Shown here piece by piece: positions 4,526-49,985 of a stretch of 64,000 nt of DNA (positions are counted from its first letter, which is position 1; every line of letters begins with the position of its first letter). This DNA comes from Planococcus lenghuensis (lineage in GTDB: Bacteria; Bacillota; Bacilli; Bacillales_A; Planococcaceae). Where the stretch lies: the NCBI RefSeq assembly GCF_001999905.1, contig NZ_CP019640.1, positions 276,501-340,500 on the forward strand. Direction: 5' to 3'. The position numbers and the translations under genes are program-made. The notes beneath the pieces are model-generated. The model saw only the letters and a program-made list of their open reading frames with translations, was not told the origin of the DNA and ran no database searches.

Positions 4526-4571
4526 TCGGAGGAGAAGGGGAAACCTTCTCTTCCGTCGCATAGGAGATAAA

Positions 4572-6754: not shown

Positions 6755-6776
6755 GCGGCAACAGGAGGGATTTCCC

Positions 6777-7304: not shown

Positions 7305-7317
7305 ATCGCCTCCCGAG

Positions 7318-7344
7318 CTGCTTCCGCGTGAAGCGGTTTTTTTT
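7318..7344 (+). terminator. Rho-independent terminator after the hemerythrin gene
   Basis: A 7-bp stem (CTGCTTC/GAAGCGG, one G-U pair) with a 5-base loop is followed by eight T residues. It closes the narGHJI-nreABC-hemerythrin transcription unit. Confidence 0.85.
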
Positions 7345-7420
7345 CGACAAATGTAACTGAGTAGATGTTTTCAATGGCCATGATGGCCTTCCCCGTGTTC
7401 GTATGGTTTTCATGTCTACC

Positions 7421-7955
7421 CCCGCGATGGCAAAGAGCGCCATCTTCGGTAAGTCCTCCAGCGCTCGTCGGGGGCCCGCACGATGCGGTTCAAATAACCG
7501 TTGCGGCAGGAGGCCGCGTTTTTAGGTTGTCCTCCTCTGTTCAGGGCGCTTGCGCTTTTCTTGTTGTCCAGTTCTGCTCGCCAGTCCGCACCTTCGTTTC
7601 ACCCACTTTCACGAAATCAGGAAAGACAGGGGACGAATGATGTTTAGTCCCCTGTCTTTGCGACGAGCTTGCGCAGGAGCATTTCTTTTATGGTTTAGGA
7701 AAGCCACCTTATAGCTGTCGGCACGGCTCGCTTCACTTTTCTTGTTGTCCAGACTCCAGCGCCCAGCCCCTCGAGTCGCTTCGGCCTTACCCGCGATGGC
7801 AAAGAGCGCCATCTTCGGTAAGTCCTCCAGCGCTCGTCGGGGCTTGCAGGGCGCTTGAGCTTTTCTCTTGTCCAGCTCGTTCGCCAGCCCGTACGCTGAT
7901 TTCACGCCCTCCGCCGGAAACAGGTTTCCGGGTCGGCCGTTCCAATCCGCTATCG
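7421..7955 (-). repeat. Left intergenic repeat block (inverted relative to the right block)
   Basis: The 766-base gap between the terminator and narK is mostly repeat DNA. Two copies of a core unit lie at 7421-7474 and 7790-7842. They contain a GATGGC...GCCATC hairpin followed by CGCTGGAGGACTT in the reverse direction. A module at 7877-7950 is identical over 74 bases to the reverse complement of 15990-16063. The stretch 7421-7572 closely matches the reverse complement of 16065-16214. A 13-bp hairpin lies at 7622-7659. Open frames here are out-of-frame readings of repeats and are not annotated. Confidence 0.85.
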
Positions 7956-7988
7956 GTCTTTCGCGGCTCTCTCCGCTTTTCTTGTTAT

Positions 7989-8023
7989 CAGGGATTCCCC
8001 CGGCCTATGCAGGGACTCCCCTA
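7989..8023 (+). promoter_or_regulatory. NreC-type operator pair upstream of narK
   Basis: The 14-base sequence CAGGGACTCCCCTA at 8010-8023 differs from the staphylococcal NreC consensus TAGGG-N4-CCCTA only in its first base. A weaker copy (CAGGGATTCCCCCG) begins 21 bases upstream at 7989, two helical turns away. A -10-like TACAAT is at 8048-8053, which would place the good site about 43 bases before the start of transcription, where an activator would bind. This is a prediction from sequence only. Confidence 0.6.
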
Positions 8024-8110
8024 ATAGGAAGAAATGCACCTTACTTCTACAATAAAGTTAGTGGAGAAAAGCTGTAAAAACTAACAAGACTTTAGAAAAA
8101 GGTGAGTAGG

Positions 8111-31858: not shown

Positions 31859-31910
31859 TTGAAAGCGTTAACATTATATTTAATATTTCGAAAATACTAA
31901 CTGGTCAGTA
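31859..31910 (+). promoter_or_regulatory. cre site and TetR-type operator in the acyl-CoA operon promoter
   Basis: Positions 31859-31873 read TTGAAAGCGTTAACA, a perfect fit to the cre consensus WTGNAANCGNWNNCW, overlapping a TTGAAA -35-like element. Downstream, 31895-31910 is the imperfect palindrome TACTAACTGGTCAGTA (6 of 8 positions paired per arm), of the kind bound by TetR-family repressors. A weak -10 (TAATAT, 31881-31886) lies between. The TetR gene of this operon (34384) is the natural candidate for the palindrome. Confidence 0.65.
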
Positions 31911-31928: not shown

Positions 31929-32702
31929 ATGAATGTGATGGATTTATTCAGTCTCAAGGGTAAAACCGCCATTGTTACAGGTGGCGGAAGAGGTCTTGGC
32001 GCACAAATCGCCCAAGGTTTCGCAGAAGCAGGCGCAAATGTTGTCGTGTGCTCACGGAACGTGGAAGCCTGTGAGGACGTGAGGAAGCAATTGGAGGAAG
32101 CGGGCGTACAGTCACTGTCAATGGCTTGTGATATTTCAAACCCCGAAGATGTCCGAAATGTCATTGAAAAAACAGTGGAAAAATTCGGCACTATTGATAT
32201 TCTGGTGAATAATTCCGGTGCCACATGGGGAGCGCCGGCTGCGGAAATGCCGCTTGATGCCTGGCAGAAAGTCATGAACGTCAACGTGACGGGTACCTTC
32301 CTGATGAGCCAGGCGGCGGGTAAGGTCATGATTGAAAAAGGCGGCGGCAAAATCATCAATATTTCGTCTGTGGCAGGTCTTGGCGGAACGGATCCCCGGT
32401 TTATGGATACGATTGGCTATAACACCTCAAAAGGCGCCGTCATCACGATGACAAAGGATCTGGCAGCTAAATGGGGACAGCATAACATCAACGTGAACGC
32501 CATTGCACCTGGATTCTTTCCGACGAAAATGTCTAAGGTGCTGATTGAAAAAGGCGGCGATCAAATTCTTAATCTCACACCGCTCCGACGCTTCGGAACA
32601 GATGAAGACCTGAAAGGAGCAGCCTTGTTCCTGGCTTCAAAAGCATCGGATTATGTGACTGGTGATGTACTGGTGGTAGACGGCGGCATGCACGCTGTTT
32701 AA
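31929..32702 (+). CDS. Short-chain dehydrogenase/reductase (FabG-like)
   Basis: This 257-aa NAD(P)-dependent SDR has TGGGRGLG at residues ~18-25 for the cofactor, NNSG, the catalytic Ser in NISSVAGLGG, the YxxxK pair (YNTSKGA), and IAPGFFPTKM. It is the first gene of the acyl-CoA operon. In the levulinate pathway an SDR reduces the 4-keto-acyl-CoA to 4-hydroxyacyl-CoA; this gene is in the right company for such a step, but the substrate is inferred. ATG 31929 follows AGAGGAAG. Confidence 0.9.
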   Translation: MNVMDLFSLKGKTAIVTGGGRGLGAQIAQGFAEAGANVVVCSRNVEACEDVRKQLEEAGVQSLSMACDISNPEDVRNVIEKTVEKFGTIDILVNNSGATWGAPAAEMPLDAWQKVMNVNVTGTFLMSQAAGKVMIEKGGGKIINISSVAGLGGTDPRFMDTIGYNTSKGAVITMTKDLAAKWGQHNINVNAIAPGFFPTKMSKVLIEKGGDQILNLTPLRRFGTDEDLKGAALFLASKASDYVTGDVLVVDGGMHAV

Positions 32703-32730
32703 AACAATTCAAAATGGAGGCGATGTGGAG

Positions 32731-34344
32731 ATGACAGTAACAGAGCAAACTTGGCATAAGCATTACCCGGAAGATATCAACGCCGTAATGGAGTTTCCGG
32801 ACAAGACACTACCCGATATTCTCGCTGAAACAGCCGCGAAGATTCCGGATAACGTGGCATTGAAATTCTACGGAAGAGAAATGACCTACAAGGAATTGCT
32901 GACATTTTCGACGGTGTTTGCTTCATCGCTCCAGCAGTCAGGGGTTCAGAAAGGGGACCGGGCGGCGATTATGCTGCCGAACTGTCCGCAATATGTGGTC
33001 TCGTATTACGGCATTCTGAAAGCCGGGGCGACCGTCACGCAAGTCAATCCGATGCTGCTGGAGCAGGAACTGATTTACTTGCTGAAGGATTCCGGAGCGG
33101 AAACGATTGTCGTCTATGAACCGCTGTATCCACGCATTAAAGCAATTGCCGGTGAAACGTCACTGAAAAACATTATCGTTGTCAGTTTTGAGACGGACCA
33201 GCCCGACCTGCAGGAAGGAGACTGGTCATTTACCAGCTTCGTTGGTAAGGGAGACGGAAAATTGGCAAACGTGGAAATAAATCCTCAGGAGGACATCGCG
33301 GTCCTGCAGTATACAGGCGGGACGACGGGGCTGTCGAAAGGTGCCATGCTCACGCACCGGAATATCCTGGCGAATGCGTTCCAGTCTCACGAGTTTTTCA
33401 AACATGATTTTGTTTTCGGCGAAGAGCGCTGCCTGACGGTCATTCCGCTGTTTCACGTATTCGCAATGTCTTCGGCTATGAATCTGTCCATTTTAACCGG
33501 TTCACAGAACATTCTGCTGCCGCGATTTGATCTCCAGGAAGTGCTGGACACCATTAAACGGGAACAGCCGACGACGTTCCCTGGCGTGCCGACGATGTAT
33601 ATCGCGATTACCAATCATCCAAAGGCCCAGGAGTACGGCATCGACAGCATTCATCTATGCAATAGCGGTAGCGCCCCGATGCCGGTGGAAACGATGAAAG
33701 AGTTTGAAGGGAAAACCGGCGCGAAAATCCTGGAAGGTTATGGACTGTCAGAAGCTTCCCCTGTAACTCATTGCAATCCTTCATTTGCGGCCCGGAAACC
33801 CGGCAGCATCGGAATCGGCATTCCTTCCACTGAATACAAGGTGGTGGACCTCGCTACGGGTGAAAACGAAGTTCCTGCCGGTGAAGCCGGTGAACTGATC
33901 ATCCGCGGCCCGCAAGTAATGAAAGGCTATTGGAATATGCCGGAAGAAACGGAAAATGCGCTCCGGGACGGCTGGCTGTACACAGGCGATATCGCCAAGG
34001 TAGACGAGGACGGTTATGTTTTTATTGTGGATCGCAAAAAGGACATGATCATCTCGAGTGGCTATAACGTTTATCCGCGTGATATTGAAGAAGTGCTGTA
34101 CGAGCATCCGGCGGTGCAGGAAGCGGTGGTCATCGGCATTGCAGATCCGTATCGCGGTGAGAGTGTGAAAGCGATCATTGTGAACAAAGCCGGACAGGAA
34201 GTGACAGAAGACGAATTGATTGAATGGGCACGCGGCAAAATGGCTGCGTATAAAGTGCCTCGTGCTGTCGAATTCCGGGCTGAACTGCCAAAGACGAATG
34301 TCGGGAAAATTCTGCGACGGGCACTTCGCGAAGAAAACCGGTAA
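32731..34344 (+). CDS. Acyl-CoA ligase (long-chain-fatty-acid-CoA ligase type)
   Basis: This AMP-forming ligase of 537 aa activates a carboxylic acid to its CoA thioester. ANL motifs are YTGGTTGLSKGAM (P-loop), EGYGLSEASPV, GWLYTGDIAKVDEDGYVFIVDRKKD (hinge Asp) and the C-terminal Lys in KTNVGKILRR. GTG 32725 is an alternative start, but ATG 32731 has better spacing from GGAGG. It is followed by the TetR gene. Confidence 0.92.
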   Translation: MTVTEQTWHKHYPEDINAVMEFPDKTLPDILAETAAKIPDNVALKFYGREMTYKELLTFSTVFASSLQQSGVQKGDRAAIMLPNCPQYVVSYYGILKAGATVTQVNPMLLEQELIYLLKDSGAETIVVYEPLYPRIKAIAGETSLKNIIVVSFETDQPDLQEGDWSFTSFVGKGDGKLANVEINPQEDIAVLQYTGGTTGLSKGAMLTHRNILANAFQSHEFFKHDFVFGEERCLTVIPLFHVFAMSSAMNLSILTGSQNILLPRFDLQEVLDTIKREQPTTFPGVPTMYIAITNHPKAQEYGIDSIHLCNSGSAPMPVETMKEFEGKTGAKILEGYGLSEASPVTHCNPSFAARKPGSIGIGIPSTEYKVVDLATGENEVPAGEAGELIIRGPQVMKGYWNMPEETENALRDGWLYTGDIAKVDEDGYVFIVDRKKDMIISSGYNVYPRDIEEVLYEHPAVQEAVVIGIADPYRGESVKAIIVNKAGQEVTEDELIEWARGKMAAYKVPRAVEFRAELPKTNVGKILRRALREENR

Positions 34345-34383
34345 CAGAAGTACAGCTGATAACAGGAACGGCGGGAGAGAGGT

Positions 34384-34941
34384 ATGAAAGAGAAAATCAC
34401 ACAGCACAGCATTCTCTTGTTTGAAGAGAAGGGATTTGTCGAGACATCGGTACAGGACATTGTAGAAGCGCTTGGTGTGACAAAAGGAACCTTCTATTAT
34501 TACTTCACAAGTAAAGAACAATTGCTGATGGAAATTCATCTGGGTTACATCGATCGACTGCTGGCACGGCAGCAAGTGATTGTTGAAAGCGGGGATTCAG
34601 CAAGAGAGAAGATCAGCGGGATGATCAGGCTGCTGATTATGGATATTGCTTCTTACGGGCCGAGTGCCCGTGTCTTTTTTCGGGAAGTCCGTCACCTGGG
34701 ACAAGAAAATGCTGCTGAAATCAGGGAAAAACGGGAACGATTCCGACTTACTATTGAACAAGTGCTGGAACGGGGCAAGGGTGCAGGTGAGTTCCGGGAA
34801 GATATGGAGCCGGGAATTACAGCGTTCGCAGTTCTCGGCATCACGAATTGGAGTTATCAATGGTATAACCCGGCCGGTGAAATTTCACCGGACCACTTGG
34901 CGGCGATTTATACAACGCTTATTTTACAAGGCATCGAATAA
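34384..34941 (+). CDS. TetR-family transcriptional regulator
   Basis: This 185-aa repressor has an N-terminal HTH (TSVQDIVEALGVTKGTFYYYF) and a C-terminal ligand domain of the type seen in KstR2/FadR-like TetR proteins (ITNWSYQWYNPAGEISPDHLA), often acyl-CoA responsive. Embedded in the operon, it probably represses it through the palindrome at 31895-31910 and responds to an acyl-CoA pathway intermediate. ATG 34384 has CGGGAGAGG upstream. Confidence 0.92.
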   Translation: MKEKITQHSILLFEEKGFVETSVQDIVEALGVTKGTFYYYFTSKEQLLMEIHLGYIDRLLARQQVIVESGDSAREKISGMIRLLIMDIASYGPSARVFFREVRHLGQENAAEIREKRERFRLTIEQVLERGKGAGEFREDMEPGITAFAVLGITNWSYQWYNPAGEISPDHLAAIYTTLILQGIE

Positions 34942-34953
34942 AGGAGGGGCAGA

Positions 34954-35838
34954 ATGGCGAATAACGATATAAAACGGATTTGCGTGGTTGGCGCCGGTCA
35001 GATGGGTCATCAGATTGCGATGCTATGCGCATTGGGCGGCTATCAGACAAAGCTGCAGGACGTGAACGCTGATGCACTTGAAAAAGCACAATACAGTTTG
35101 GAAGCATTGATGGAGCAATGGGTGCAAAAAAAGAAAATCACTCAAGAAGAACGTGAATCGGCTTTCAACCGCCTTGCATTTACTGGGGTGTTGGAAGAGG
35201 CGGCAAGTGACGCAGACATGGTCATTGAAGCCGTTGTGGAAAAACTGGATGTAAAGCGGGATATTTTTACGCAACTTGATCGAATCGCGCCGCCTCATGC
35301 CATTCTGGCCTCCAACAGTTCGACAATCGTCAATTCATTGATCGCAGAAGTGACAGGACGGCCGGAACAGGTTTGCAATATGCATTTCTTTTTCCCGCCG
35401 CTCGTCATGGATTGCGTGGAAGTCGTGATGAGTGACCGGACGTCTGAAGAAACGGCACAGAAAGCGCTGGCTGTCTGTGAACAAATTGGCCTGACGGGAA
35501 TTCTGCTCCGGAAGGAAATTTCCGGGTTTGTGGCCAACCGGATTCTCGGTGCCCTTCAGAAAGAAGCGATGGATTTATATGAGGCGGGGATTGCGGACTA
35601 TGCGGATATTGACCTGATCGTCAAAAAAGCGCTCCGCCACCCGATCGGACCGTTCGAATTGATGGATCTTTCCGGAATCGATGTCGGTTATTACGTCATG
35701 CAGCAGCGTTATGCGGAAACCGGGGACCCGGCAGATAAGCCGCCTGCGTTCATTGAAGAAAAAGTGAAAGCGGGGGAGCTCGGCCGTAAAACCGGCAAGG
35801 GATTTTACGATTACTCACTCAAGGAAGTGAGAAGCTGA
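34954..35838 (+). CDS. 3-hydroxyacyl-CoA dehydrogenase
   Basis: This NAD-dependent enzyme of 294 aa oxidises 3-hydroxyacyl-CoA to 3-ketoacyl-CoA. The Rossmann motif GAGQMGHQIA is at residues 12-21, the catalytic region reads NMHFFFPPLVMDCVEVV (NxHFFxPP, where the His acts), and the C-terminal domain has GFVANRI and LMDLSGIDVGY. It overlaps the following hydratase by a single base of the stop/start (TGATG), so the two steps are coupled. Confidence 0.93.
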   Translation: MANNDIKRICVVGAGQMGHQIAMLCALGGYQTKLQDVNADALEKAQYSLEALMEQWVQKKKITQEERESAFNRLAFTGVLEEAASDADMVIEAVVEKLDVKRDIFTQLDRIAPPHAILASNSSTIVNSLIAEVTGRPEQVCNMHFFFPPLVMDCVEVVMSDRTSEETAQKALAVCEQIGLTGILLRKEISGFVANRILGALQKEAMDLYEAGIADYADIDLIVKKALRHPIGPFELMDLSGIDVGYYVMQQRYAETGDPADKPPAFIEEKVKAGELGRKTGKGFYDYSLKEVRS

Positions 35839-36617
35839 TGGCGGATCACGTACATAGCGAGAAACGGAACGGCTATGCGGTTATAACCTTGTCCAATCCG
35901 CCGATGAATGTGCTGAGTCAGCGCGTTTTCAAGGAATTGGATGAAACATTCAGCAAGCTGGGACAAGACCCGGAAGTCACTGCGGTCGTGTTGACAGCGG
36001 CAGGCGACCGGGCATTCGTTGCAGGTGCCGATATTAAAGAGTTCCCGGAATTGATCGGTAAATCCGGCCTTAAGCAGGGACTCATGGAGACCCATGCCAT
36101 ATTGAATAAAATTGATGCCTTTGAAAAACCGGTGATCGCCGCATTGAACGGCTTGACGCTCGGAGGCGGAACAGAGCTGGCGCTGTGCTGCGATATTCGC
36201 ATAGCGGATGCAGCTGTTCAGATCGGGCTGCCTGAGATTACACTCGGCCTGTTTCCGGGCGGCGGCGGTACACAGCGTCTGCCGCGCCTTGTAGGTGAAG
36301 CGAAAGCAAAAGAACTGATGTTTACGGGGATTCCGGTTGATGCTGCGGAAGCGGCCAGTATCGGTCTCGTGAATTTCGTTGTGCCGACGGGTGATGTACT
36401 GAAAGCGGCGGAGAAAATGGCTGCCCGGATCAGCGGTTTTTCATTACCCGCTCTTTCCCGGATCAAGCAGGCTGTGGATGAGGGGCTTGCGCTTTCGCTC
36501 GGTGAAGGAATTGAACGTGAAGCAGCGCTCTTTGAAGAAGTGTTTCAGACAGAAGACATTCAGGAAGGAGTGCGGGCGTTCATTGAAAAACGAAAGCCGG
36601 CATTTCGGAATAAATAA
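35838..36617 (+). CDS. Enoyl-CoA hydratase/isomerase family protein
   Basis: This crotonase-fold protein of 259 aa has an oxyanion-hole segment (AFVAGADIKEF) and the second conserved region LTLGGGTELALCCDIRIADAAVQIGLPEITLGLFPGGGG, containing both catalytic-position glutamates (TEL and PEI). It should hydrate enoyl-CoA in the pathway. It is translationally coupled to the dehydrogenase upstream. Confidence 0.93.
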   Translation: MADHVHSEKRNGYAVITLSNPPMNVLSQRVFKELDETFSKLGQDPEVTAVVLTAAGDRAFVAGADIKEFPELIGKSGLKQGLMETHAILNKIDAFEKPVIAALNGLTLGGGTELALCCDIRIADAAVQIGLPEITLGLFPGGGGTQRLPRLVGEAKAKELMFTGIPVDAAEAASIGLVNFVVPTGDVLKAAEKMAARISGFSLPALSRIKQAVDEGLALSLGEGIEREAALFEEVFQTEDIQEGVRAFIEKRKPAFRNK

Positions 36618-36633
36618 TGGAGGAGGAGACCGA

Positions 36634-37047
36634 GTGGCGCACGAGATAGATGTGAAAGTCCGATTTTGTGAGACAGATGCGCTGGGCCATATCAGCAATA
36701 TTAGCTATTTTATCTATCTGGAAGAAGCGCGGACGGACTTTTTTGGGGAAATGGGCTTTGAGATGGGGATAGGTAACTGGAAATTCATTCTGGCATCTGC
36801 CACATGTGATTTTGTCAGCCAAGGCTACTTTAATCAGCGGCTGAAAGTGGTTTCCGAAATCAGCCGGATCGGCAATTCCAGTTTCACGATTGTTCACCGG
36901 ATTGAGGATGACAGAGGGAAGCGTATTGCAAACGGGGAGGCGAGTATCGTCTTTTTTGACTTTGATAAACAAAAAAGCGAGCGGCTGCCGGATTGGTTCC
37001 GCGAGACATTGACAGAACATCTGGCAGCAGCATCAGAGGCGGGGTGA
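36634..37047 (+). CDS. 4HBT-type hotdog acyl-CoA thioesterase
   Basis: This 137-aa hotdog-fold thioesterase has the family start VRFCETDALGHISNISYFIYLEEART with the catalytic Asp in the TDALGH motif. It may release CoA from stalled or product acyl-CoA. The open frame extends to 36478 inside the previous gene, but GTG 36634 with GGAGGAGG is the clear start and gives standard length. The phosphotransferase-like gene follows six bases after its stop. Confidence 0.9.
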   Translation: MAHEIDVKVRFCETDALGHISNISYFIYLEEARTDFFGEMGFEMGIGNWKFILASATCDFVSQGYFNQRLKVVSEISRIGNSSFTIVHRIEDDRGKRIANGEASIVFFDFDKQKSERLPDWFRETLTEHLAAASEAG

Positions 37048-37052
37048 AACGA

Positions 37053-38120
37053 ATGACGACACATACGAACGATACGATCCCTGTAAGATCGGGGGAAGAG
37101 TTGAATGTACAGAAACTGGAGCAATTCCTGCGGACAAGAATCGACGGGTTGCCGGCAGGGGAGCTGACGGTCCGCCAATTCGGCACCGGTCATTCCAATT
37201 TAACCTATGCTTTGCAGATCGGTGACTGGGAAGCTGTGCTACGTCGGCCGCCGCTCGGTCCTGTTGCGCCAAAAGCGCATGATATGGAACGGGAGCATCG
37301 GATTTTGTCGGCTTTGCATCCTGTATTTCCAGCGGCTCCGGAACCATACGTGTTTTCGGATGATTCCGATATTGTCGGCAGTCCGTTTTTCGTCATGGAA
37401 CGGCGGCATGGCATTGTGCTGGATACCGCTTTTCCGGAAGGAGTGGAACCGACGCCGGATTTATGCCGCCGGATTTCCGAAAAAATGGTCGACACGCTTG
37501 TTGAACTCCATGCATTGGACTATAAGGAGACGCCGCTTGCTGAACTTGCAAAACCTGAAGGGTTCATGGAACGGCAAGTGCATGGCTGGATCGGCCGCTA
37601 TGAACGGGCGGCGACCGATGATATGGAAGGTATAGATGAATTGAAGGCATGGATGACCGCCAATATTCCGGCATCACCGGATCCGACAGTCATCCATTAT
37701 GATTTCAAATTGAATAATACCATGTTCTCGAAAGATTTCTCACAGCTGACAGGCTTGTTCGACTGGGAAATGACGACCGTCGGTGATCCGCTTGCCGATC
37801 TTGGTGCGGCGATGAGTTACTGGATCCAGTCGGATGATCCTGAATTGTTGAAATCCGGAATGGGCAAGCCGCCGGTCACCGTCCTGGATGGTTTCTATAC
37901 GCGCCAGGAATTCATCGAGCAATACGGGAAGAAAAGCGGACGGGATGTAAGCAATATGAAGTTTTATCTGACGTTTGCCTACTTCAAACTGGCTGTCATC
38001 ATTCAACAGATCTACTACCGCTACCGGCAGGGACAGACCCAGGATAAGCGGTTCGCCCATTTTAATCGGTTCGCGGACAGTCTGATCCGCCATGCACTGG
38101 CTGTTGCAAAAGGGACGTGA
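37053..38120 (+). CDS. APH-fold phosphotransferase of the ACAD10/11-LvaA type
   Basis: This 355-aa kinase-fold protein has the N-terminal loop FGTGHSNLTY (residues 43-52), Lys/Arg-rich VLRRPPLGPVAPKAHDMEREH, and the catalytic HYDFKLNN loop (H215, D217, N222) followed by metal-binding D237 in LFDWEM. The RRPP...AHDM..E pattern marks the subgroup that includes LvaA and the kinase domains of ACAD10/ACAD11, which phosphorylate the 4-hydroxyl of 4-hydroxyacyl-CoA. It is four genes after the TetR and is followed by an acyl-CoA dehydrogenase, supporting that role. Antibiotic phosphorylation is unlikely. Confidence 0.88.
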   Translation: MTTHTNDTIPVRSGEELNVQKLEQFLRTRIDGLPAGELTVRQFGTGHSNLTYALQIGDWEAVLRRPPLGPVAPKAHDMEREHRILSALHPVFPAAPEPYVFSDDSDIVGSPFFVMERRHGIVLDTAFPEGVEPTPDLCRRISEKMVDTLVELHALDYKETPLAELAKPEGFMERQVHGWIGRYERAATDDMEGIDELKAWMTANIPASPDPTVIHYDFKLNNTMFSKDFSQLTGLFDWEMTTVGDPLADLGAAMSYWIQSDDPELLKSGMGKPPVTVLDGFYTRQEFIEQYGKKSGRDVSNMKFYLTFAYFKLAVIIQQIYYRYRQGQTQDKRFAHFNRFADSLIRHALAVAKGT

Positions 38121-38124
38121 AGAA

Positions 38125-38871
38125 ATGCCGAAACTGCATGTGCTGCTGAAAAAAGAAGAACTGGAAGAAACGAAACTCCAGGACGGCAAAATAGCGGTCG
38201 TCTTTGATGTGCTGCTTGCAACGTCCACCATTGTCTCCTGTTTACATTATGGTGCAAAAGAAGTTATTCCGGTGATGGATGGAGACGAAGCGCGAAAAGC
38301 TGCAGAGCGGCTGAAAGCTGACAGTTTCTGTCTGACAGGCGAGTTCAACGGCGCGACCATTGAAGGGTTCCTCGATCCGAATCCACTGCAGCTGCAAAAG
38401 ACCGTCGGAGGAAAAACGGTCGTGCTGTCCACGACGAATGGGACCGTTGCGATCCGGAATTCGGCAACGGCGGCACGGACATACATCGCTTCTCTCTTGA
38501 ATGGCCAGGCAGCAGCTGAGCTGATTGCCAAGCGGCATAAAAATGAAACGGTGATCGCAGTTTGTTCCGGGTCCGGCGGAGAATTCTGTCTGGAAGATTT
38601 CTACGGAGCAGGTTACTTCATTGACTGCCTGCTGGAAGAATCAGACACATGGGAACTGACCGATGCCGCACAGGCGGCGCTATTATTCTATCAATCCAGA
38701 AAACAGGAAGCGGCAGAAATTTTGAAGGCATCCCGTGTCGGAAAAATGCTGCTGCGGAACGAGTGGGAAGAAGAAATTGAATTTGCGGCCAACCGGGGCA
38801 TCATTCCGACAGTTCCTGAATTTAAAGGCAATACGATTGCTTCAGAAGGAGATGAACGTTATGAAGACTGA
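38125..38871 (+). CDS. 2-phosphosulfolactate phosphatase family protein (ComB-like)
   Basis: This 248-aa protein belongs to the ComB family, which hydrolyses 2-phospho-3-sulfolactate in coenzyme M and sulfolactate pathways. Family blocks are VVFDVLLATSTIVSCLHYGA, LTGEFNGATIEGFLDPNP, VLSTTNGTVAIRNS, and AVCSGSGGEFCLEDFYGAG. No ComA (phosphosulfolactate synthase) is nearby; instead the gene sits between a kinase and an acyl-CoA dehydrogenase and overlaps the latter by 11 bases. It may handle a different phosphorylated substrate here. ATG 38125 gives the family's standard length. Confidence 0.85.
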   Translation: MPKLHVLLKKEELEETKLQDGKIAVVFDVLLATSTIVSCLHYGAKEVIPVMDGDEARKAAERLKADSFCLTGEFNGATIEGFLDPNPLQLQKTVGGKTVVLSTTNGTVAIRNSATAARTYIASLLNGQAAAELIAKRHKNETVIAVCSGSGGEFCLEDFYGAGYFIDCLLEESDTWELTDAAQAALLFYQSRKQEAAEILKASRVGKMLLRNEWEEEIEFAANRGIIPTVPEFKGNTIASEGDERYED

Positions 38872-40633
38872 CACACTGGCATATCGGGGCGGCTCGTTCC
38901 TCTACAGCCCCGCAGAGAAAGATGCGGTATTCACCCCGGAAAATTTTACCGAAGAGCACCGGATGATTGCAGCTACTGCAAAGCGCTTCCTGGAACAGGA
39001 AGTGCGGCCGAATAATGAAGCGCTGGAGAATCAGGATTTCACTAAAGTGAAGGAACTTCTACACAAGGCGGGTGAACTCGGCCTGCTCGGACACAGCGTA
39101 CCCGAAGCATACGGGGGCCTTGGGCTCGATAAAATCAGCAAAGGGCTCGTCGGCGAGATGCTCGGGTCGGGCGGCGGCTACAGTGTGGCGCAGTCCAATC
39201 ACACATGCATCGCGACACTCCCGATTACGTATTTCGGGACGGAACAGCAGAAAGAGAAATACTTGCCGAAGCTCGCCTCCGGTGAGTTCATCGGTGCTTA
39301 CTGTCTGACGGAGCCGAACGCCGGATCGGATGCGCTCGCAGCACAGACGACCGCACGGCTGAATGAAGCCGGAACACATTATATTTTGAACGGCACTAAA
39401 ATGTTCATCACAAATGCGGAATTCTCGGATACGTTCATCACTTACGCCAAAGTGGATGGAAACGCGTTCACCGCATTTATCGTGGAGCGGAACTTTCCGG
39501 GGTTGTCGCTCGGACCGGAAGAACAGAAGATGGGCATCAAAAGCTCTTCGACCCGAGCGGTTATTTTTGAAGACTGCGAAGTGCCGGTGGAGAACCTGCT
39601 TGGTGAAGTCGGCAAAGGCCATGTCATCGCACTGAACGTGCTGAACTTGGGGCGGTTTAATCTTGGTTCTGCCTGTACGGGAGCGGCCAAATACGGGATG
39701 GGACTCGCACTTGGCTATGTGAAAGAACGAAAGCAATTCGGCAGGGCGATTGCAGATTTCGGTGCAACGCAGGAGAAAATCGCCGACATGGCGATCCGCA
39801 TCTATGCGGCTGAATCGCTGCAGTACCGGACAGCTGGTTATCTGGAAGACGCGCTCGGTAGTCTATATGAGTCGGACGATCAGCGTCTCATTGCAAAACA
39901 GCTGATGGAATATGCATCAGAATGTGCAGTGTGCAAAGTCTATGGTTCGGAAACACTTGATTTCGTCGCCGATGAAGCGCTTCAGCTGCATGGTGGCTAT
40001 GGGTATATCAAAGAATACGGTGTCGAGCAGATGTACCGGGATTCCCGGATCAACCGGATTTTCGAAGGGACGAACGAAATCAATCGCCTGCTCATCCCGA
40101 TGAATCTGCTGAAAGCGGCGATGAAAGGACAGATTCCGCTGCTGGATCTCGTCAATCAGGCGGCTTCCGAGATGCAGGAACCAAAAGTGGACGGGATTGG
40201 ACCAATTACGCGGGAAACAGAAGCAGTCAAAGCTGTTCGACGTGTCCTTTTGATGTGTGCAGGACTGGCATTTGAGGCATATGGTGAAAAACTGGCAGAA
40301 GAGCAGGGCGTGCTGATGCAGCTTGCAAATCTCGGTATTGCGCTGTATGCCTTGGAATCCGCTGTGCTTCGGACGCAAAAAGAACTCGATGCAAAAGGTG
40401 AAGAGAAAGTGCAGCTGAAACTCCAGCTTGCCGAGGCGCTTGCCGACGAGACGCTGTTGGCTGCTGAACTCGCTGCGCGGAAAATGATTCAATCAGCGGC
40501 AAAAAATCCACAGCTGGCCACCGCCGTTACTGCAGTTACCGCAGAATTGAGCCGGTTGCAGCGCGGTGGCACAGCGCGGACGAAGCGGGCAATCGCCCAG
40601 GCGCAATTTGAAGCCGGGCAATTTGTAAGCTGA
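38861..40633 (+). CDS. Acyl-CoA dehydrogenase (FadE-like, with C-terminal extension)
   Basis: This FAD flavoenzyme of 590 aa follows the Bacillus FadE (YusJ) layout, an ACAD core to about residue 400 and a C-terminal helical domain of about 180. It shows GAYCLTEPNAGSDALAAQ, KMGIKSSSTR and the catalytic Glu in RIFEGTNEINR. ATG 38861 with AGAAGGAG upstream is the start; the frame open before it is the previous gene's shadow. In lva-type pathways the ACAD converts the 4-phosphoacyl-CoA; classical alpha,beta-dehydrogenation is the alternative. Confidence 0.93.
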   Translation: MKTDTLAYRGGSFLYSPAEKDAVFTPENFTEEHRMIAATAKRFLEQEVRPNNEALENQDFTKVKELLHKAGELGLLGHSVPEAYGGLGLDKISKGLVGEMLGSGGGYSVAQSNHTCIATLPITYFGTEQQKEKYLPKLASGEFIGAYCLTEPNAGSDALAAQTTARLNEAGTHYILNGTKMFITNAEFSDTFITYAKVDGNAFTAFIVERNFPGLSLGPEEQKMGIKSSSTRAVIFEDCEVPVENLLGEVGKGHVIALNVLNLGRFNLGSACTGAAKYGMGLALGYVKERKQFGRAIADFGATQEKIADMAIRIYAAESLQYRTAGYLEDALGSLYESDDQRLIAKQLMEYASECAVCKVYGSETLDFVADEALQLHGGYGYIKEYGVEQMYRDSRINRIFEGTNEINRLLIPMNLLKAAMKGQIPLLDLVNQAASEMQEPKVDGIGPITRETEAVKAVRRVLLMCAGLAFEAYGEKLAEEQGVLMQLANLGIALYALESAVLRTQKELDAKGEEKVQLKLQLAEALADETLLAAELAARKMIQSAAKNPQLATAVTAVTAELSRLQRGGTARTKRAIAQAQFEAGQFVS

Positions 40634-40652
40634 ACCAGAAGGAGGAAAATTT

Positions 40653-41627
40653 ATGAAAATCGTAAAATTGGAAAAGTATGGCGGCCCGGAAGTGCTGGAG
40701 CTGACGGAAGCGCCGATGCCTGAACCCGCACAAGGAGAAGTGGTTGTTGAGATCAAGGCAATTGGCGTGAATTACGCGGACACCGCCCGGCGGGAAGGGC
40801 AGTATGTTGTGCCGACACCGCTGCCATTTACACCGGGAGCAGAGATCGCGGGGACAGTTTCAGCAGTCGGTGGAGGCGTGACCCGGTTTAAACCTGGTGC
40901 GCGCGTCGTGGCATTGATTGAATCCGGCGGCTATGCCGAATATGTCACTGTTGCGGAACAGACGTTGATTCCTGTGCCTGACGGCGTACCATTTGAGCAG
41001 GCGGTCGCTTTACCGCTGCAAGGACTGAGTGCCTATCATATCCTGAAAACGATGGGCCGGGTAGAACCGGGCGAGACCGTACTCGTGCATGCGGCGGCAG
41101 GCGGCGTCGGAACATTGGCGGTGCAGCTGGCTAAAATTTTCGGGGCCGGGAGCGTCATTGCGACAGCCAGCACAGACGAAAAACTGGAGCATGCACGCAG
41201 CCTTGGGGCGGATCATCTCGTGAACTACACGGAAGCTGGCTGGGAAGATAAAGTAAAGGAACTGACAGGCGGCAAGGGTGTGGATGTGGCGCTTGAAATG
41301 GTGGGAGGCGAAGTGTTCCATCAGACGCTGAGATGCTTGGCGCCGTTCGGCCGGCTGGTCATTTTCGGGGCAGCGAGCGGTGAACAGGCTCAGTTCCAAC
41401 CGGGACAGCTTATGCGGAAAAATCAGTCGGTCGTCGGGTTCTTCCTGCCGCAAATCATGCGGAAACCGGATTTATTCAGACAGAGCCTTGGTGAATTACT
41501 GGAATGGACAGGGAGCGGCAAACTGAAACTGACAGTGGGCGGCACGTACCCGCTTGCGGAAGCGGCAGATGTGCATCGGCAGCTGCAGGGTCGGAAGACG
41601 ATCGGCAAGCTGGTGCTGGTACCTTGA
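40653..41627 (+). CDS. Quinone oxidoreductase / zinc-less MDR-family reductase
   Basis: This medium-chain dehydrogenase of 324 aa has a GroES-like N-terminus (GVNYADTARREGQYV) and an NADPH Rossmann motif VHAAAGGVGTLAVQLAK at about residues 145-160. It lacks the Cys/His zinc ligands of alcohol dehydrogenases, so it fits quinone oxidoreductase or 2-enoyl-CoA reductase types. The closest matches by motif are NADPH:quinone reductases. A terminator follows at 41634. Confidence 0.88.
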   Translation: MKIVKLEKYGGPEVLELTEAPMPEPAQGEVVVEIKAIGVNYADTARREGQYVVPTPLPFTPGAEIAGTVSAVGGGVTRFKPGARVVALIESGGYAEYVTVAEQTLIPVPDGVPFEQAVALPLQGLSAYHILKTMGRVEPGETVLVHAAAGGVGTLAVQLAKIFGAGSVIATASTDEKLEHARSLGADHLVNYTEAGWEDKVKELTGGKGVDVALEMVGGEVFHQTLRCLAPFGRLVIFGAASGEQAQFQPGQLMRKNQSVVGFFLPQIMRKPDLFRQSLGELLEWTGSGKLKLTVGGTYPLAEAADVHRQLQGRKTIGKLVLVP

Positions 41628-41633
41628 ATTACT

Positions 41634-41660
41634 GCCGGAAAGCGATGGCTTTCCGGCTTT
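41634..41660 (+). terminator. Rho-independent terminator inside the acyl-CoA cluster
   Basis: The stem GCCGGAAAGC / GCTTTCCGGC with a 4-base loop is followed by TTT. It probably ends the main operon or attenuates expression of the second hydratase. Confidence 0.75.
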
Positions 41661-41699
41661 CTGAAATGGCGAAAGAAAACAGACCGAGGAGGAATGGGA

Positions 41700-42479
41700 A
41701 TGACAAGTGAACACGTAGTAGTAAAGCAGCAGGACGCTGTGCTTTCACTGCAATTGAACCGGCCGGAAAGTCTGAATGCATTCAGCCCGGAAATGATTGA
41801 ACAGCTGACGGAAGAAGTGAAAGCGGCAGGGGAGAATGATGATGTCGGAGCGATTGTATTATCAGGTGCAGGCCGGTCGTTTTCAGCCGGCGGTGACGTA
41901 AAAACGATGGGACAGGCTGGTCCTGCAGAGACATATGATCATATCGGTGAACTGAATAAATTGATTCTCGCAATGCGCGAACTTGAAAAGCCGATTGTGG
42001 CAGCGGTTCATGGTTTTGCGGCGGGTGCAGCATTCAATTTGGCGCTCGCGAGCGATCTTATCGTGGCTGCTGAAGACAGTAAATTTGTTATGAGTTTTGC
42101 CCAAGTCGGTCTCATTTCAGACGGGGGAGGCTTATATTTCCTGCCGCGGCTGATCGGACCATACCGGGCAAAGCAATTATTTTTCAGCGCAGAACCGATT
42201 ACCGCCCGGCAGGCGCACGAATGGGGAATCGTAAATTATGTATATCCGGTCGATCAATTGGAACAGGAAGCACTGGCGTTAGCCGAACGACTGGCAGCCG
42301 GTCCTGGCCGGACGTTTGGACTCTTGAAGAAAATCACAGATCAGGCGGCGACTTCAAGTCTCGCTGAAATCCTCGAACAGGAACGAATCACGCAGGCAAT
42401 GATGGTTACAACCGATAATCATAAAGAAGGTGTGGCGGCATTCAAGGAAAAGCGGAAACCCGACTTTAATCCACGCTGA
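41700..42479 (+). CDS. Enoyl-CoA hydratase/isomerase (second copy in cluster)
   Basis: This crotonase-family protein of 259 aa has AGRSFSAGGDVKTM (oxyanion hole), FAAGAAFNLALASDLIVAAEDSKFVMSFAQVGLISDGGG, and RKPDF near the C-terminus. One catalytic-position residue is Ala/Asn (AAFNLA) where the classical hydratase has Glu, and the other region reads VGLISD. It may therefore be an isomerase, hydrolase or lyase rather than a true hydratase. ATG 41700 is set by GAGGAGG seven bases upstream. Confidence 0.88.
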   Translation: MTSEHVVVKQQDAVLSLQLNRPESLNAFSPEMIEQLTEEVKAAGENDDVGAIVLSGAGRSFSAGGDVKTMGQAGPAETYDHIGELNKLILAMRELEKPIVAAVHGFAAGAAFNLALASDLIVAAEDSKFVMSFAQVGLISDGGGLYFLPRLIGPYRAKQLFFSAEPITARQAHEWGIVNYVYPVDQLEQEALALAERLAAGPGRTFGLLKKITDQAATSSLAEILEQERITQAMMVTTDNHKEGVAAFKEKRKPDFNPR

Positions 42480-42791
42480 GAACCGGAAACAGGTTAAAAG
42501 AAGGCGCTGATCTTGGTGCAACCGGTTAATTCATCACTTTAAAAAGCAGGAAAGCAAGGACAGATAACCGGCAGGCTCATTTGGGATGCGTTTGCATACG
42601 GGCACCGAGCTGAAAATCACCTGAAACGTTGGCGGGAGTTTCAGGAGGGTGGAGCTGTGTCGGTGGAAAGTATTCATCGGGAGCGATTCCATTCAGGAAT
42701 CCACAATTCTTACGAAAAGAATCCATCAAATTGAATAATCCCACAGCTGCTGCCTGAAGACGCATATGTCGGTTTTAAGGGAGGAAATCGG
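42480..42791 (+). promoter_or_regulatory. 312-base gap before the second acyl-CoA ligase
   Basis: This gap should contain the promoter for the ligase-lactonase pair. It includes an 8-bp hairpin (CCTGAAAC...GTTTCAGG at about 42619-42644), several AT-poor stretches, and the AAGGGAGG ribosome site just before 42792. No convincing -35/-10 pair, cre or TetR palindrome like that at 31895 was found. Confidence 0.35.
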
Positions 42792-44465
42792 ATGAATAAG
42801 GCACATTTCGAATTTTGGCCAAGCAGATTACCGAAAACACTCGCTGTTCCTGAAACCACTTTATATGATAATTTGGCAATTTCAGCAAAAAAATATCCGG
42901 AAAAGACGGCACTGGTTTATTACGGCGCCCGGTATACGTACAGTCAAGTGCTCAAAGAAGTGGAAGCGCTTGCAGGGTATCTGCAGAATGTGCTGGGCGT
43001 CAAGAAAGGCGAGAACGTTCTGCTGTTCATGCAGAATGCCCCGCAGTTTCTGATCGGTTATTATGCCATATTGCGGGCGGAAGCTGTCATTGTGCCGGTC
43101 AATCCGATGAACACAGCGGAAGAGATGGCATTTTACGTAGAAGACAGCGCCATCCGGGCCGGAATTATCGGTCAAGAGTTATATGGCCGGGTAAATGAAT
43201 TGAAAGGCCGTACCTCGCTTACACAAATTATCACTGCTGCTTATTCTGACTACGCAGGAAACGGGGATGGACTTGGGGAATTACCGGAAGCTGTCAGGGA
43301 GCCGGTGCAAGTGGTTGATAAAGTGATTGAGTGGAAAGAGGCAATCGGAGCAGGATGCAAACCGTTCGAATACAGAGGGGATGCAGAAGACACGGCAATT
43401 CTGCCGTATACATCCGGTACGACCGGTCAACCGAAGGGTTGTATCCATACGAACCGGACGGTGCAGGCGAATACGGTCGGAGCTTTCCATTGGATGAATA
43501 TCACCGCAGATGCGGCCGCATTATTGACGCTTCCGCTTTTTCATGTCACCGGTATGGTGCATAGTATGAACACGCCGATTTATGCAGGCGGGACGATGGT
43601 CATGATGACCCGCTGGGACCGCGACTATGCGGCAAGTGCAATCGAGCGGTACGGCTGCACGCATTGGATCAACATCAGCACGATGCTCATCGATTTTCTC
43701 GCAAATCCGAAATTGGCGCAATACGATATTTCCTCACTGCAGGCAATCGGCGGTGGAGGAGCCCCGCTTCCGGAAGCGGTCGGAGAAAAGCTGACAGCGA
43801 TCACCGGACTGGAATATATCGAAGGATACGGGTTATCGGAGACGATTTCACATACGCATTTCAATCCGCCGGACCGGCCGAAACTGCAGTGCCTTGGTAT
43901 TCCGTCATTCGATGTGGACGCGCGTGTCATCGAACCTTCAACCGGAAAAGAACTCGGTCCCGGTCAGGACGGGGAGCTCATCGTGAACGGGCCGCAAGTA
44001 TTTAAGGGCTATCACAACCGGCCGGATGAGAATCGGAACTCGTTCATCGAGTTTGACGGCAAAGTTTTTTTCCGGACGGGTGATATTGTGCGAACAGACG
44101 AAGAAGGTTACTTTTTCATCGTGGATCGCGTAAAGCGGATGATCAACGCCGCGGGTTTTAAAGTATGGCCGACAGAAGTGGAATCGATGCTTTATAAACA
44201 TCCAGCCATCCAGCAGGCCTGTGTGGTCGGCATTCCCGATCCGAGAAGAGGCGAAACGGTCAAAGCATTTGTCATTTTGAATGAAGAAGCAAAAGGCGAT
44301 GTGACGGAAGAGGAAATCATCGAATGGGCGAAGGGGCAAATGGCAGCCTATAAGTATCCGCGGTTCATTGAATTCCGGGAAACATTTCCGACGACAAGCA
44401 GCGGGAAAATTTTATGGCGGAAACTGCAGGACGAAGAGCGGGGAAAATCCGGGGAGGTTTTGTAA
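42792..44465 (+). CDS. Acyl-CoA ligase (second copy)
   Basis: This AMP-forming CoA ligase of 557 aa has PYTSGTTGQPKGCIHTN (P-loop), EGYGLSETISHTHFNPP, KVFFRTGDIVRTDEEGYFFIVDRVKRM and the catalytic Lys in TTSSGKILWRK. It is as distant from the first ligase in the cluster as separate paralogues usually are, so it probably activates another chain or a hydroxylated acid. Its stop codon is directly followed by the ATG of the lactonase gene. Confidence 0.92.
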   Translation: MNKAHFEFWPSRLPKTLAVPETTLYDNLAISAKKYPEKTALVYYGARYTYSQVLKEVEALAGYLQNVLGVKKGENVLLFMQNAPQFLIGYYAILRAEAVIVPVNPMNTAEEMAFYVEDSAIRAGIIGQELYGRVNELKGRTSLTQIITAAYSDYAGNGDGLGELPEAVREPVQVVDKVIEWKEAIGAGCKPFEYRGDAEDTAILPYTSGTTGQPKGCIHTNRTVQANTVGAFHWMNITADAAALLTLPLFHVTGMVHSMNTPIYAGGTMVMMTRWDRDYAASAIERYGCTHWINISTMLIDFLANPKLAQYDISSLQAIGGGGAPLPEAVGEKLTAITGLEYIEGYGLSETISHTHFNPPDRPKLQCLGIPSFDVDARVIEPSTGKELGPGQDGELIVNGPQVFKGYHNRPDENRNSFIEFDGKVFFRTGDIVRTDEEGYFFIVDRVKRMINAAGFKVWPTEVESMLYKHPAIQQACVVGIPDPRRGETVKAFVILNEEAKGDVTEEEIIEWAKGQMAAYKYPRFIEFRETFPTTSSGKILWRKLQDEERGKSGEVL

Positions 44466-45461
44466 ATGGCAAAACAAGTGGAGACAGTCACAGGACCGAT
44501 TGCGCCAGAAGACATGGGGAAAACACTGATTCATGAACATTTCATTTTCGGGTATCCCGGATTCCAGGGCGACAGCACACTCGGCCCGTTCAACTTCGAA
44601 GAAGCGGTGGGTGCGGGAGTCGCGGCAGCTGAAAAGATGATGAGCCACGGGGTGAAGACGGTTGTTGATCCGACACCGAACGAATGCGGTCGGGACCCTG
44701 AGGTGCTTAAAGCGATTTCCGAGCGGTCCGGCCTGCAAATCATCTGCGCGACCGGCTACTATTACGAGGGCGAAGGAGCGACGCCTTATTTTAAATTCAG
44801 AGCGTCACTCGGAAGTGCGGAGCAGGAAATCAGTGAAATGTTCATGAAAGAAATCACCGATGGGATCGGGACATCCGGTATTAAACCGGGCATCATTAAA
44901 CTGGCGTCCAGTAAAGGGGCGATCACGGATTATGAGCAGATGTTCTTCCGGGCGGCGGCACAGGCGCAACGGGAAACGGGCATTACGCTTTTGACGCATA
45001 CGCAGGAAGGGACAATGGGACCCGAGCAGGCACGGCTGCTGATAGATCTCGGGGCGGATCCGGCGAGTATCGTCCTCGGCCATATGTGCGGCAATACGGA
45101 TCCGTCCTACCATAAGCAAGCGCTTGAAACAGGAGTGAGTATCGCATTCGACCGGTTCGGCCTGCAGGGGATGGTCGGAGCACCTTTCGATCAGGAGCGG
45201 ATCAAGACATTGCTGGAACTGTTGGCGGACGGATATGAAGATCAAATCATGCTGTCCCATGATTCCATCACTGTCTGGCTTGGCCGTCCGCCGGTCATCC
45301 CGCCGCAAGCGGAAGCAGGTGTCGCCAATTGGCATCCGACTTATCTGTTCGAGGAAGTGGTGCCGCAGCTGAAACAAGCGGGCGTAACAGAGGAGCAGCT
45401 GGATAAATTGTTTACGGAGAACCCGAAAAAGCTATTCGCAGGAAAGGCGCTGACCGTTTAA
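44466..45461 (+). CDS. Phosphotriesterase-like lactonase (amidohydrolase fold)
   Basis: This 331-aa binuclear-metal hydrolase of the PTE family has HxH (HEHF, H23/H25), a candidate bridging Lys in GIIKLASSKG, metal His in LLTHTQ and LGHMCG, and Asp in MLSHDSI. Natural family members are mostly lactonases acting on acyl-homoserine or gamma/delta-lactones. It starts directly after the stop of the acyl-CoA ligase, which fits opening a lactone to a hydroxy acid that the ligase then activates. The substrate is inferred; organophosphate hydrolysis is only a side activity in this family. Confidence 0.88.
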   Translation: MAKQVETVTGPIAPEDMGKTLIHEHFIFGYPGFQGDSTLGPFNFEEAVGAGVAAAEKMMSHGVKTVVDPTPNECGRDPEVLKAISERSGLQIICATGYYYEGEGATPYFKFRASLGSAEQEISEMFMKEITDGIGTSGIKPGIIKLASSKGAITDYEQMFFRAAAQAQRETGITLLTHTQEGTMGPEQARLLIDLGADPASIVLGHMCGNTDPSYHKQALETGVSIAFDRFGLQGMVGAPFDQERIKTLLELLADGYEDQIMLSHDSITVWLGRPPVIPPQAEAGVANWHPTYLFEEVVPQLKQAGVTEEQLDKLFTENPKKLFAGKALTV

Positions 45462-45486
45462 AAAAGCCGGGTAACCGGCTTTTTTC
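45461..45486 (+). terminator. Terminator of the ligase-lactonase pair
   Basis: The stem AAAAAGCCGG / CCGGCTTTTT with a 4-base loop and trailing T residues. It overlaps the last base of the lactonase stop region. Confidence 0.9.
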
Positions 45487-49676: not shown

Positions 49677-49985
49677 ATGGAAAACACCGGATTAAAAGTG
49701 CTCGTGCATACAAGTGCGTTTTTCGCTCCGTTTCTGGTGCCGTTTATTGTTTATTTGATTGCGACTGATGAAGAAGTGAAAAAACTGTCGGTCCAGGCGA
49801 TTCTGTTCCAGATTGCCTTGACGGTGCTGATTATCGTTTCATTCGTACTTGCGTTTTTCCTGGTAGGCATTCCACTGTTGATCGTGTTTGCAGCGATGGG
49901 CTTTATCGTGCCGATCATCGGAATTGTTAAAGCGGTGAACCACGAGAAATTCAATTACCCGATCGTTGGCGGTTTGTACCGCTAA
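49677..49985 (+). CDS. DUF4870-family membrane protein
   Basis: This 102-aa protein has three hydrophobic helices (LVHTSAFFAPFLVPFIVYLI, AILFQIALTVLIIVSFVLA, VGIPLLIVFAAMGFIVPIIGIV) and the conserved GG..P (YPIVGGLYR) end of DUF4870. The function is unknown. ATG 49677 is chosen over 49668 for spacing from GGAGAGG. An IS1182-family element lies 12 bases beyond its stop on the opposite strand. Confidence 0.85.
   Translation: MENTGLKVLVHTSAFFAPFLVPFIVYLIATDEEVKKLSVQAILFQIALTVLIIVSFVLAFFLVGIPLLIVFAAMGFIVPIIGIVKAVNHEKFNYPIVGGLYR

Follow-up and report, generated by a model that had tools for sequence, protein, structure and literature searches.

A candidate operon for 4-hydroxy fatty acid catabolism in Planococcus lenghuensis, with a ComB-like gene beside its kinase

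What might a member of the Bacilli do with an APH-fold kinase that is encoded among β-oxidation genes and a lactonase gene? The question is raised by a run of 13 plus-strand genes at positions 31929-45461 of a 64,000-nucleotide stretch of Planococcus lenghuensis DNA (NCBI RefSeq assembly GCF_001999905.1, contig NZ_CP019640.1, positions 276,501 to 340,500), which we call the window. The initial annotation, made from the sequence letters, had read this run as a γ-lactone and 4-hydroxy or 4-keto acid catabolic cluster. All the genes that it named are present on that strand and in the order it gave (Table 1), and their families were confirmed by the Pfam and NCBIfam profile matches that we used for assignment. 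It overlooked a ComB-like gene (PF04029) between the kinase and acyl-CoA dehydrogenase (ACAD) genes. It also missed a further cluster at C1:3.44-3.46 Mb, the second in the genome and the more complete of the two.

From gene content, residues, co-occurrence, a separated partner gene and a ComB subfamily, all of them computed, we infer the substrates, all enzymatic steps and the roles of the ComB-like protein and the regulator. The unit is probably a catabolic operon for medium- or long-chain 4-hydroxy fatty acids, also in 4-keto or lactonised form, with the LvaC step supplied from outside and the ComB-like protein serving as an accessory phosphatase or restraint.

The kinase and its separately encoded dehydrogenase

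The closest solved relatives of the kinase are 9o56 (62% identical), which is labelled "aminoglycoside phosphotransferase" and nothing more, the kinase domain of ACAD11 (34%) and 3dxp (33%). In an alignment of 46 kinase rows, from which four rows called "other" were excluded, the His and Asp of HxD, the Asn, the Asp of DxE and the α-C Glu are kept throughout, as is the Arg aligned with ACAD11 R176. The Glu of DxE and the Arg before the α-C Glu are each kept in 45 rows, and the window kinase has both, as it has the R176 equivalent. The two Arg positions are near the CoA in ACAD11. The Arg beside the α-C Glu would be the published "R86" of ACAD11, the numbering of the chain not being an exact fit. 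In the kinase tree, the window kinase falls in a 21-row set of Bacillota sequences and 9o56 (100/97); the second cluster's paralogue is the next to join (99/97), followed by Deinococcus and Rhodococcus kinases (91/86). Three outgroup APH proteins stand on branches of length 10 in this tree, and the bootstrap was unsettled, so that the deep grouping is not settled by it. Judged by its catalytic and CoA-contact residues and by its occurrence in the same genomes as LvaC-type dehydrogenases, the kinase is a member of the LvaA/ACAD10-11 family, as had been proposed.

The same cannot be said of the dehydrogenase beside it. The claim that the gene set covers each step is not supported, because the ACAD of the window is of the FadE type (NF058590), with Glu in the catalytic motif FEGTNE and no HCMR motif, and this rules it out as the LvaC partner. 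The phosphate-elimination step is therefore absent from the window, and LvaC-type enzymes are encoded at two other sites, these being two of the 12 PF00441 matches in the genome. One gene lies at C1:244232-245440, 68 kb before the window kinase and followed by a TetR gene; the other, at C1:3457576-3458781, is the last gene of the second cluster. The first enzyme matches ACAD11 at 5e-149 and has the HCMR motif, the upstream Arg and the catalytic Asp (RLGPGRIHHCMR and ADGPDQVH). The pattern R-x4-R-x2-HCMR with DGPD-x-VH was found in 59 of 59 LvaC-type open reading frames (ORFs) checked. According to PMC12440821, both ACAD11 and LvaC convert the phospho-acyl-CoA to the enoyl-CoA, and HCMR, the upstream Arg and the catalytic Asp, which were tested by mutation in ACAD10/11, matter for this. 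We also observed that the first LvaC-type gene overlaps its TetR gene (C1:244232-246060; L121 8233-10061), far from any kinase, and that this TetR resembles by eye the TetR protein encoded in the second cluster.

The kinase and the LvaC type occur together. With thresholds fixed beforehand (1e-30 and 1e-60), the 56 of 200 Bacilli genomes that have the kinase are identical with the 56 that have the LvaC type, and 144 have neither. FadE-type enzymes occur in 142 of the 200 (by eye in 55 of the 56 kinase genomes, hence in 87 of the 144 others), so that the match is no general property of ACADs. Among 41 genomes of the family, the kinase query found a match at E≤0.001 in 21, of which 15 are full length, one is a fragment with an internal stop (G039) and five are weak matches or relics; the LvaC type is present in exactly the 15 genomes whose kinase is full length. 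The two are often neighbours, since an LvaC-type gene lies within 10 kb of 54 of the 67 kinase copies in the 200 genomes. It is in view at 57 of 80 kinase loci, which are the best 80 of 238 relatives and thus biased to close ones, and 22 of the genomes of the remaining 23 loci carry it outside the stretch in view.

The second cluster of P. lenghuensis (C1:3438500-3463000; L108, L122) keeps both partners together. Its kinase is 49% identical to that of the window, and it holds a short-chain dehydrogenase/reductase (SDR), 3-hydroxyacyl-CoA dehydrogenase, hydratases, a ComB-like gene (PF04029), TetR, an oxidoreductase, a ligase and the LvaC type. It also encodes 2-oxoacid dehydrogenase E1-β and E2 and a TIGR00366-like transporter (445 bits, below the cut-off of 576); three TRAP-transporter-like genes and one E1-α-like gene were recognised by eye. 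Because of its transporters, this cluster perhaps serves a short-chain hydroxy or keto acid. For the window unit, the FadE and the long-chain-type ligases suggest medium- to long-chain substrates.

The ComB-like gene

The ComB-like gene lies 1 nt from the kinase gene and overlaps the ACAD gene by 14 nt. A ComB-like gene is the next recognised gene 3' of the kinase in 44 of the 80 loci. The 200 genomes contain 122 PF04029 copies. For 40 of them, spread over 35 of the 56 genomes with the kinase, a kinase or LvaC gene is no more than 8 kb away; 82 are unlinked at that distance, 29 of them in kinase genomes. When the 41 family genomes were searched with the window protein, whole copies were found in eight, all of them kinase genomes, and a ninth match (G024) is short and contains stops.

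Linked and unlinked copies differ in their residues. We compared 68 linked proteins (44 found at the 80 loci, the one encoded in the second cluster, those of three family genomes [L130-L132] and 20 hand-chosen from the 40, some of which lie near the LvaC type and not near a kinase) with 50 of the 82 unlinked ones (the 30 best scoring and 20 hand-chosen). Asp29, Glu74, Asn106, Glu158, Asp159 and Asp181 are kept in all 68 linked proteins. Position 32 is Arg or Lys in none of the linked and 41 of the unlinked proteins, position 86 is Pro in 67 of the linked and a single unlinked one (L213, itself from a kinase genome), and Arg at position 209 occurs in none of the linked and 38 of the unlinked. 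Where unlinked proteins usually have Arg32 and Asn86, the window protein has Leu32 and Pro86. By eye, linked ComB proteins come in two kinds that are rather unlike each other, and the split holds in both. On these residues, the pathway-linked proteins are a distinct subfamily, and we infer that they no longer make the contacts that hold a small anionic substrate and have changed to another one. For the ComB-like protein, the likeliest role is that of an accessory phosphatase, or of a restraint on the kinase, that would hydrolyse or limit 4-phosphoacyl-CoA or its free acid.

Phosphatases of other folds sometimes stand beside relatives of the kinase. Annotated histidine phosphatase genes do so in Deinococcus, Azospirillum, Pseudoalteromonas, Sulfitobacter, Ideonella, a Rhodobacteraceae strain, Streptomyces and Caballeronia, and PF00300 was confirmed in all four that were tested. 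Among 18 plasmid kinase regions, taken from 40 listed out of a total of 287, a gene annotated as histidine phosphatase adjoins the kinase in four (L164, L165, L166, L169) and one annotated as HAD phosphatase lies in the same run in one, from Tsukamurella (L171; TIGR01509, above cut-off). Conversely, the kinase adjoins five of eight histidine-phosphatase matches and not the other three, a count biased by a query that was itself a kinase neighbour. As reported in PMC6692424, a histidine phosphatase gene of Pseudomonas citronellolis adjoins an LvaA homologue without LvaB, and the authors proposed that it may take the phosphate off 4-phosphovaleryl-CoA. As an observation of its own, the Tsukamurella run (2047-8903) contains the kinase, an LvaC-type ACAD, the HAD phosphatase and an annotated phosphotriesterase gene, and is thus a second link of a lactonase-like gene with the kinase.

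A wider idea, which we hold tentatively and slightly below an even chance, is that phosphatases of unrelated folds have repeatedly been placed beside the 4-hydroxyacyl-CoA kinase as a relief valve for a hazardous phospho-acyl-CoA, and that the linked ComB is a new 4-phosphoacyl-CoA (or 4-phospho-fatty acid) phosphatase. The cases would be the ComB subfamily in Bacilli, histidine phosphatases in Proteobacteria, Deinococcus and Streptomyces, and the HAD protein in Tsukamurella; the HAD domain of ACAD10 may be compared. The need for such a valve would be greatest where the kinase is uncoupled from the LvaC-type enzyme, which is the case in the P. lenghuensis genome.

The proposed pathway and its alternatives

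In the proposed pathway, the lactonase would open γ- or δ-lactones, the ligases would form the CoA ester and the SDR would interconvert 4-keto- and 4-hydroxyacyl-CoA. The kinase would then phosphorylate the 4-hydroxyl, and an LvaC/ACAD11-type enzyme encoded elsewhere in the genome (either at C1:244232-245440 or, as a paralogue, at C1:3457576) would eliminate the phosphate to give 2-enoyl-CoA, which the hydratases, 3-hydroxyacyl-CoA dehydrogenase and FadE would carry through β-oxidation. The ComB-like protein would act when the LvaC-type step lags. For the SDR, it is of note that SDR genes adjoin the LvaC-type gene in many Bacillaceae clusters. The genes for CoA activation and β-oxidation that the initial annotation had listed were all matched by family profiles, and so was the lactonase coupled to the second ligase. 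This lactonase matches phosphotriesterase (PTE)-like lactonase structures across nearly its whole length; we take the entries 3ojg and 4h9u to be structures of GkaP, the lactonase of Geobacillus kaustophilus. The window protein shares Tyr99, a reported lactone contact in GkaP (PMC4338136). If the unit takes both kinds of lactone, 5-hydroxyacyl-CoA would go straight to β-oxidation and 4-hydroxyacyl-CoA would go by way of the kinase.

Several observations weigh against this reading of the pathway or of the phosphatase. ACAD11 and 3dxp fall in a separate group of 13 rows in the kinase tree (94/72), joined to the window kinase through weak deep forks in a tree that did not include P. putida LvaA. 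Neobacillus dielmonensis (L060) has the kinase, and the LvaC type was not found there. GkaP prefers δ-lactones (δ-decanolactone 9.9e5, γ-hexyl-γ-butyrolactone 7.3e4 s-1M-1; PMC4338136), so the lactonase of the unit may feed 5-hydroxy acids, for which no kinase is needed. ComB was not found in 36 of the 80 kinase loci and is therefore not required, and no substitute was found among the ORFs of the 80 loci with two crude queries, one histidine-phosphatase profile and one HAD sequence. No phosphatase is seen within the 4-9 kb flanks of 13 of the 18 plasmid kinase regions. Finally, the HAD domain of ACAD10 restrains its kinase and has negligible phosphatase activity (PMC11342911), so that a phosphatase fold next to the kinase does not by itself imply hydrolysis.

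The ordinary FadE, the generic β-oxidation character of most genes and the lactone preference of GkaP would also fit a unit that mainly serves β-oxidation of fatty acids or δ-lactones, in which kinase and ComB act on a different hydroxyacyl-CoA, such as a 3-, 5- or branched one. We consider this unlikely, because the kinase and the LvaC type occupy the same 56 of 200 genomes and the residues with which ACAD11 binds phosphate are present in the LvaC type. The genome distribution likewise argues against an antibiotic phosphotransferase, the least credible of the alternatives. PF01636 does include aminoglycoside kinases, and the window kinase has a weak match to NF033068, but at 32.8 bits this is far under the cut-off of 205, and among relatives of told function the ACAD11 chains match best.

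For the ComB-like protein, the rival to be taken most seriously is a role without catalysis, as a partner of the kinase or a restraint on it, in place of LvaB or the ACAD10 HAD domain; we regard it as rather doubtful. It would agree with the behaviour of the ACAD10 HAD domain and with LvaB, which is needed for growth on levulinate and pulls down with LvaA (PMC6692424, citing Rand et al.). A working enzyme would, however, be expected to keep D29, E74, E158, D159 and D181, as all 68 linked copies do, and 36 of the 80 loci dispense with the gene. That the protein is a true 2-phosphosulfolactate phosphatase, there by chance, is very improbable. Its PF04029 score is well above cut-off, but it stays below cut-off in all eight NCBIfam ComB models that it matches (e.g., 170.7 against 330). 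ComA (PF02679) has no match in the genome, whereas Bacillus subtilis and Methanocaldococcus jannaschii among 14 controls do match, the linked subfamily deviates at positions 32, 86 and 209, and the linkage of ComB to the pathway extends across many genera. An accessory phosphatase of the proposed pathway remains the reading that we prefer.

Layout, control and relation to known systems

From the SDR to the second hydratase, intergenic spacings run from -14 to +66 nt. A 312-nt gap precedes ligase 2, and the unit may be divided there into two transcripts; the lactonase follows ligase 2 at 0 nt. There is no space for an unassigned gene such as lvaB from the SDR to the second hydratase or from ligase 2 to the lactonase; no search for it was made in the 312-nt gap or in other parts of the genome.

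Table 1. Features of the unit and its surroundings (window positions)
Feature	Position	Strand	Evidence
Cre-like site upstream of first gene	31860-31873	+	Sole exact match to TGWNANCGNTNWCA within window
Near-palindrome ACTGGTCAGT, candidate TetR operator	31900-31909	.	Recurrence upstream of related units
SDR, candidate 4-ketoacyl-CoA/4-hydroxyacyl-CoA reductase (putative LvaD-like role)	31929-32702	+	PF13561 8.2e-64
Acyl-CoA ligase 1	32731-34344	+	PF00501 2e-94
TetR-family regulator	34384-34941	+	PF00440, PF17932
3-Hydroxyacyl-CoA dehydrogenase (3HCDH)	34954-35838	+	PF02737 1.1e-57
Enoyl-CoA hydratase 1 (ECH)	35838-36617	+	PF00378 1e-63
Hotdog thioesterase (4HBT)	36628-37047	+	PF13279 1.8e-19
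APH-fold kinase, LvaA/ACAD10-11 family	37053-38120	+	PF01636 1.5e-45; ACAD11 8v3v 1.6e-46; residues, co-occurrence, tree
ComB-like protein, pathway-linked subfamily, candidate accessory phosphatase	38122-38871	+	PF04029 6.2e-63; subfamily residues; linkage
FadE-type ACAD, ordinary β-oxidation	38858-40633	+	NF058590 814 bits, cut-off 600; FEGTNE
Quinone-oxidoreductase-like protein (zinc-type)	40653-41627	+	TIGR02824 293.2 bits, slightly below cut-off 296.8
Enoyl-CoA hydratase/isomerase 2 (ECH2)	41694-42479	+	PF00378 2.3e-61
Acyl-CoA ligase 2	42792-44465	+	NF006181 854 bits, cut-off 705
PTE-like lactonase (GkaP-like)	44466-45461	+	PF02126 4.5e-59; PTE-like structures 1e-141 to 1e-144; Tyr99
Terminator-like inverted repeat 3' of lactonase	45460-45485	+	11-nt arms, 100% complementary, ends in T-run

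Two candidate control elements precede the first gene, in line with the cre and TetR control suggested earlier. The cre-like site recurs exactly in 7 of 74 upstream stretches, the window counted (0.04 in base-shuffled stretches); with one mismatch, the motif has 5 matches in the window against 6.5 expected. The near-palindrome ACTGGTCAGT recurs with at most one mismatch in 31 of the 74 (shuffled mean 0.6), and it was chosen by eye in the window and tested afterwards, an automatic palindrome search having yielded no clear motif. The 74 stretches come from related species and hence are not independent. The recurrence of both elements supports catabolite and TetR control of the unit, and the TetR protein is the presumed partner of the candidate operator. 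A FadR-type operator (TGAATGA-N4-TCATTCA) was tried and had no match with up to two mismatches. Promoter and terminator scans were overall no better than shuffles (15 against 11.5 and 13 against 14.9); the repeat behind the lactonase was not listed by the latter, its T-run forming part of its arm.

A BCCT gene lies upstream of the unit, and CstA, ArsA-like and ADH genes lie downstream; some of these flanking genes recur beside the kinase units of L040, L041, L043, L044, L056 and L091. The Planococcus-type units L040, L041, L043, L044 and L091 are related to the window unit but shorter, lacking both ligases, ComB, ECH2, the lactonase and a linked LvaC. In the draft genome of the congener Indiicoccus explosivorum (L056 10001-11043), the kinase is broken up between two reading frames, and ComB was not found in the kinase unit; draft errors are possible. 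Several Planococcus loci have a cytochrome P450 gene after the kinase (L033 11152-12369) or after ComB and a hydratase (L028 12657-13895), PF00067 being present in both of these tested and the others among L032-L039 recognised by eye; this P450 may supply the pathway with hydroxy fatty acids. An IS1182-family transposase gene (NF033551, 418.6 bits) lies at window positions 49839-51791, a few kilobases 3' of the unit.

How does the unit compare with known systems? The levulinate pathway lvaABCDE of Pseudomonas putida KT2440 (Rand et al. 2017), as described in PMC6692424 and PMC11342911, shares the kinase, an ACAD with phosphate elimination, the SDR, the ligase and the same logic. The P. lenghuensis unit differs in that no LvaB-like gene was seen in the cluster, a TetR protein stands in place of the LvaR-type regulator and the LvaC type is unlinked, whereas long-chain-type ligases, FadE, a lactonase and the ComB-like protein are added. 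Mammalian ACAD10 and ACAD11 share the kinase family, and the unlinked dehydrogenase is ACAD11-like with HCMR and the catalytic Asp (PMC12440821, PMC11342911); here the functions are on separate genes, and the ComB-like protein stands in place of the ACAD10 HAD domain. The levulinate clusters of P. citronellolis LA18T likewise have a phosphatase-family gene beside the LvaA homologue and no LvaB, but that is a histidine phosphatase from one strain (PMC6692424), and here it is a ComB family in many genera. Compared with GkaP, the lactonase is set apart by its position directly 3' of a ligase, within a kinase unit. The ComB structure 1vr0, a "probable" 2-phosphosulfolactate phosphatase, shares the sequence family (3.1e-38) and acidic residues with the ComB-like protein, in which Arg32, Asn86 and Arg209 are replaced and which is kinase-linked in a genome without ComA.

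In the open-licence literature, judged by titles and the openings of abstracts and leaving most subscription papers outside its scope, we recognised neither a Bacilli version of the pathway nor a ComB beside the kinase. The earlier statement that such a pathway seems undescribed for this group fits this search; the kinase-LvaC pair is nevertheless common in Bacilli (56 of 200 genomes) and not peculiar to this strain. The pathway class is known; what looks new is its layout in a Gram-positive bacterium, together with the ComB subfamily.

The kinase/ACAD route for 4-hydroxyacyl-CoA was only recently worked out in mammals, where the role of the ACAD10 HAD domain was left open. The version in Bacilli, with separate genes, two paralogous clusters in one genome and a single-gene phosphatase candidate, would allow this question to be addressed in simple bacteria. 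It would also assign a function to a ComB subfamily that belongs to a family named after a sulfolactate enzyme, and it would hint at what GkaP-like lactonases do biologically.

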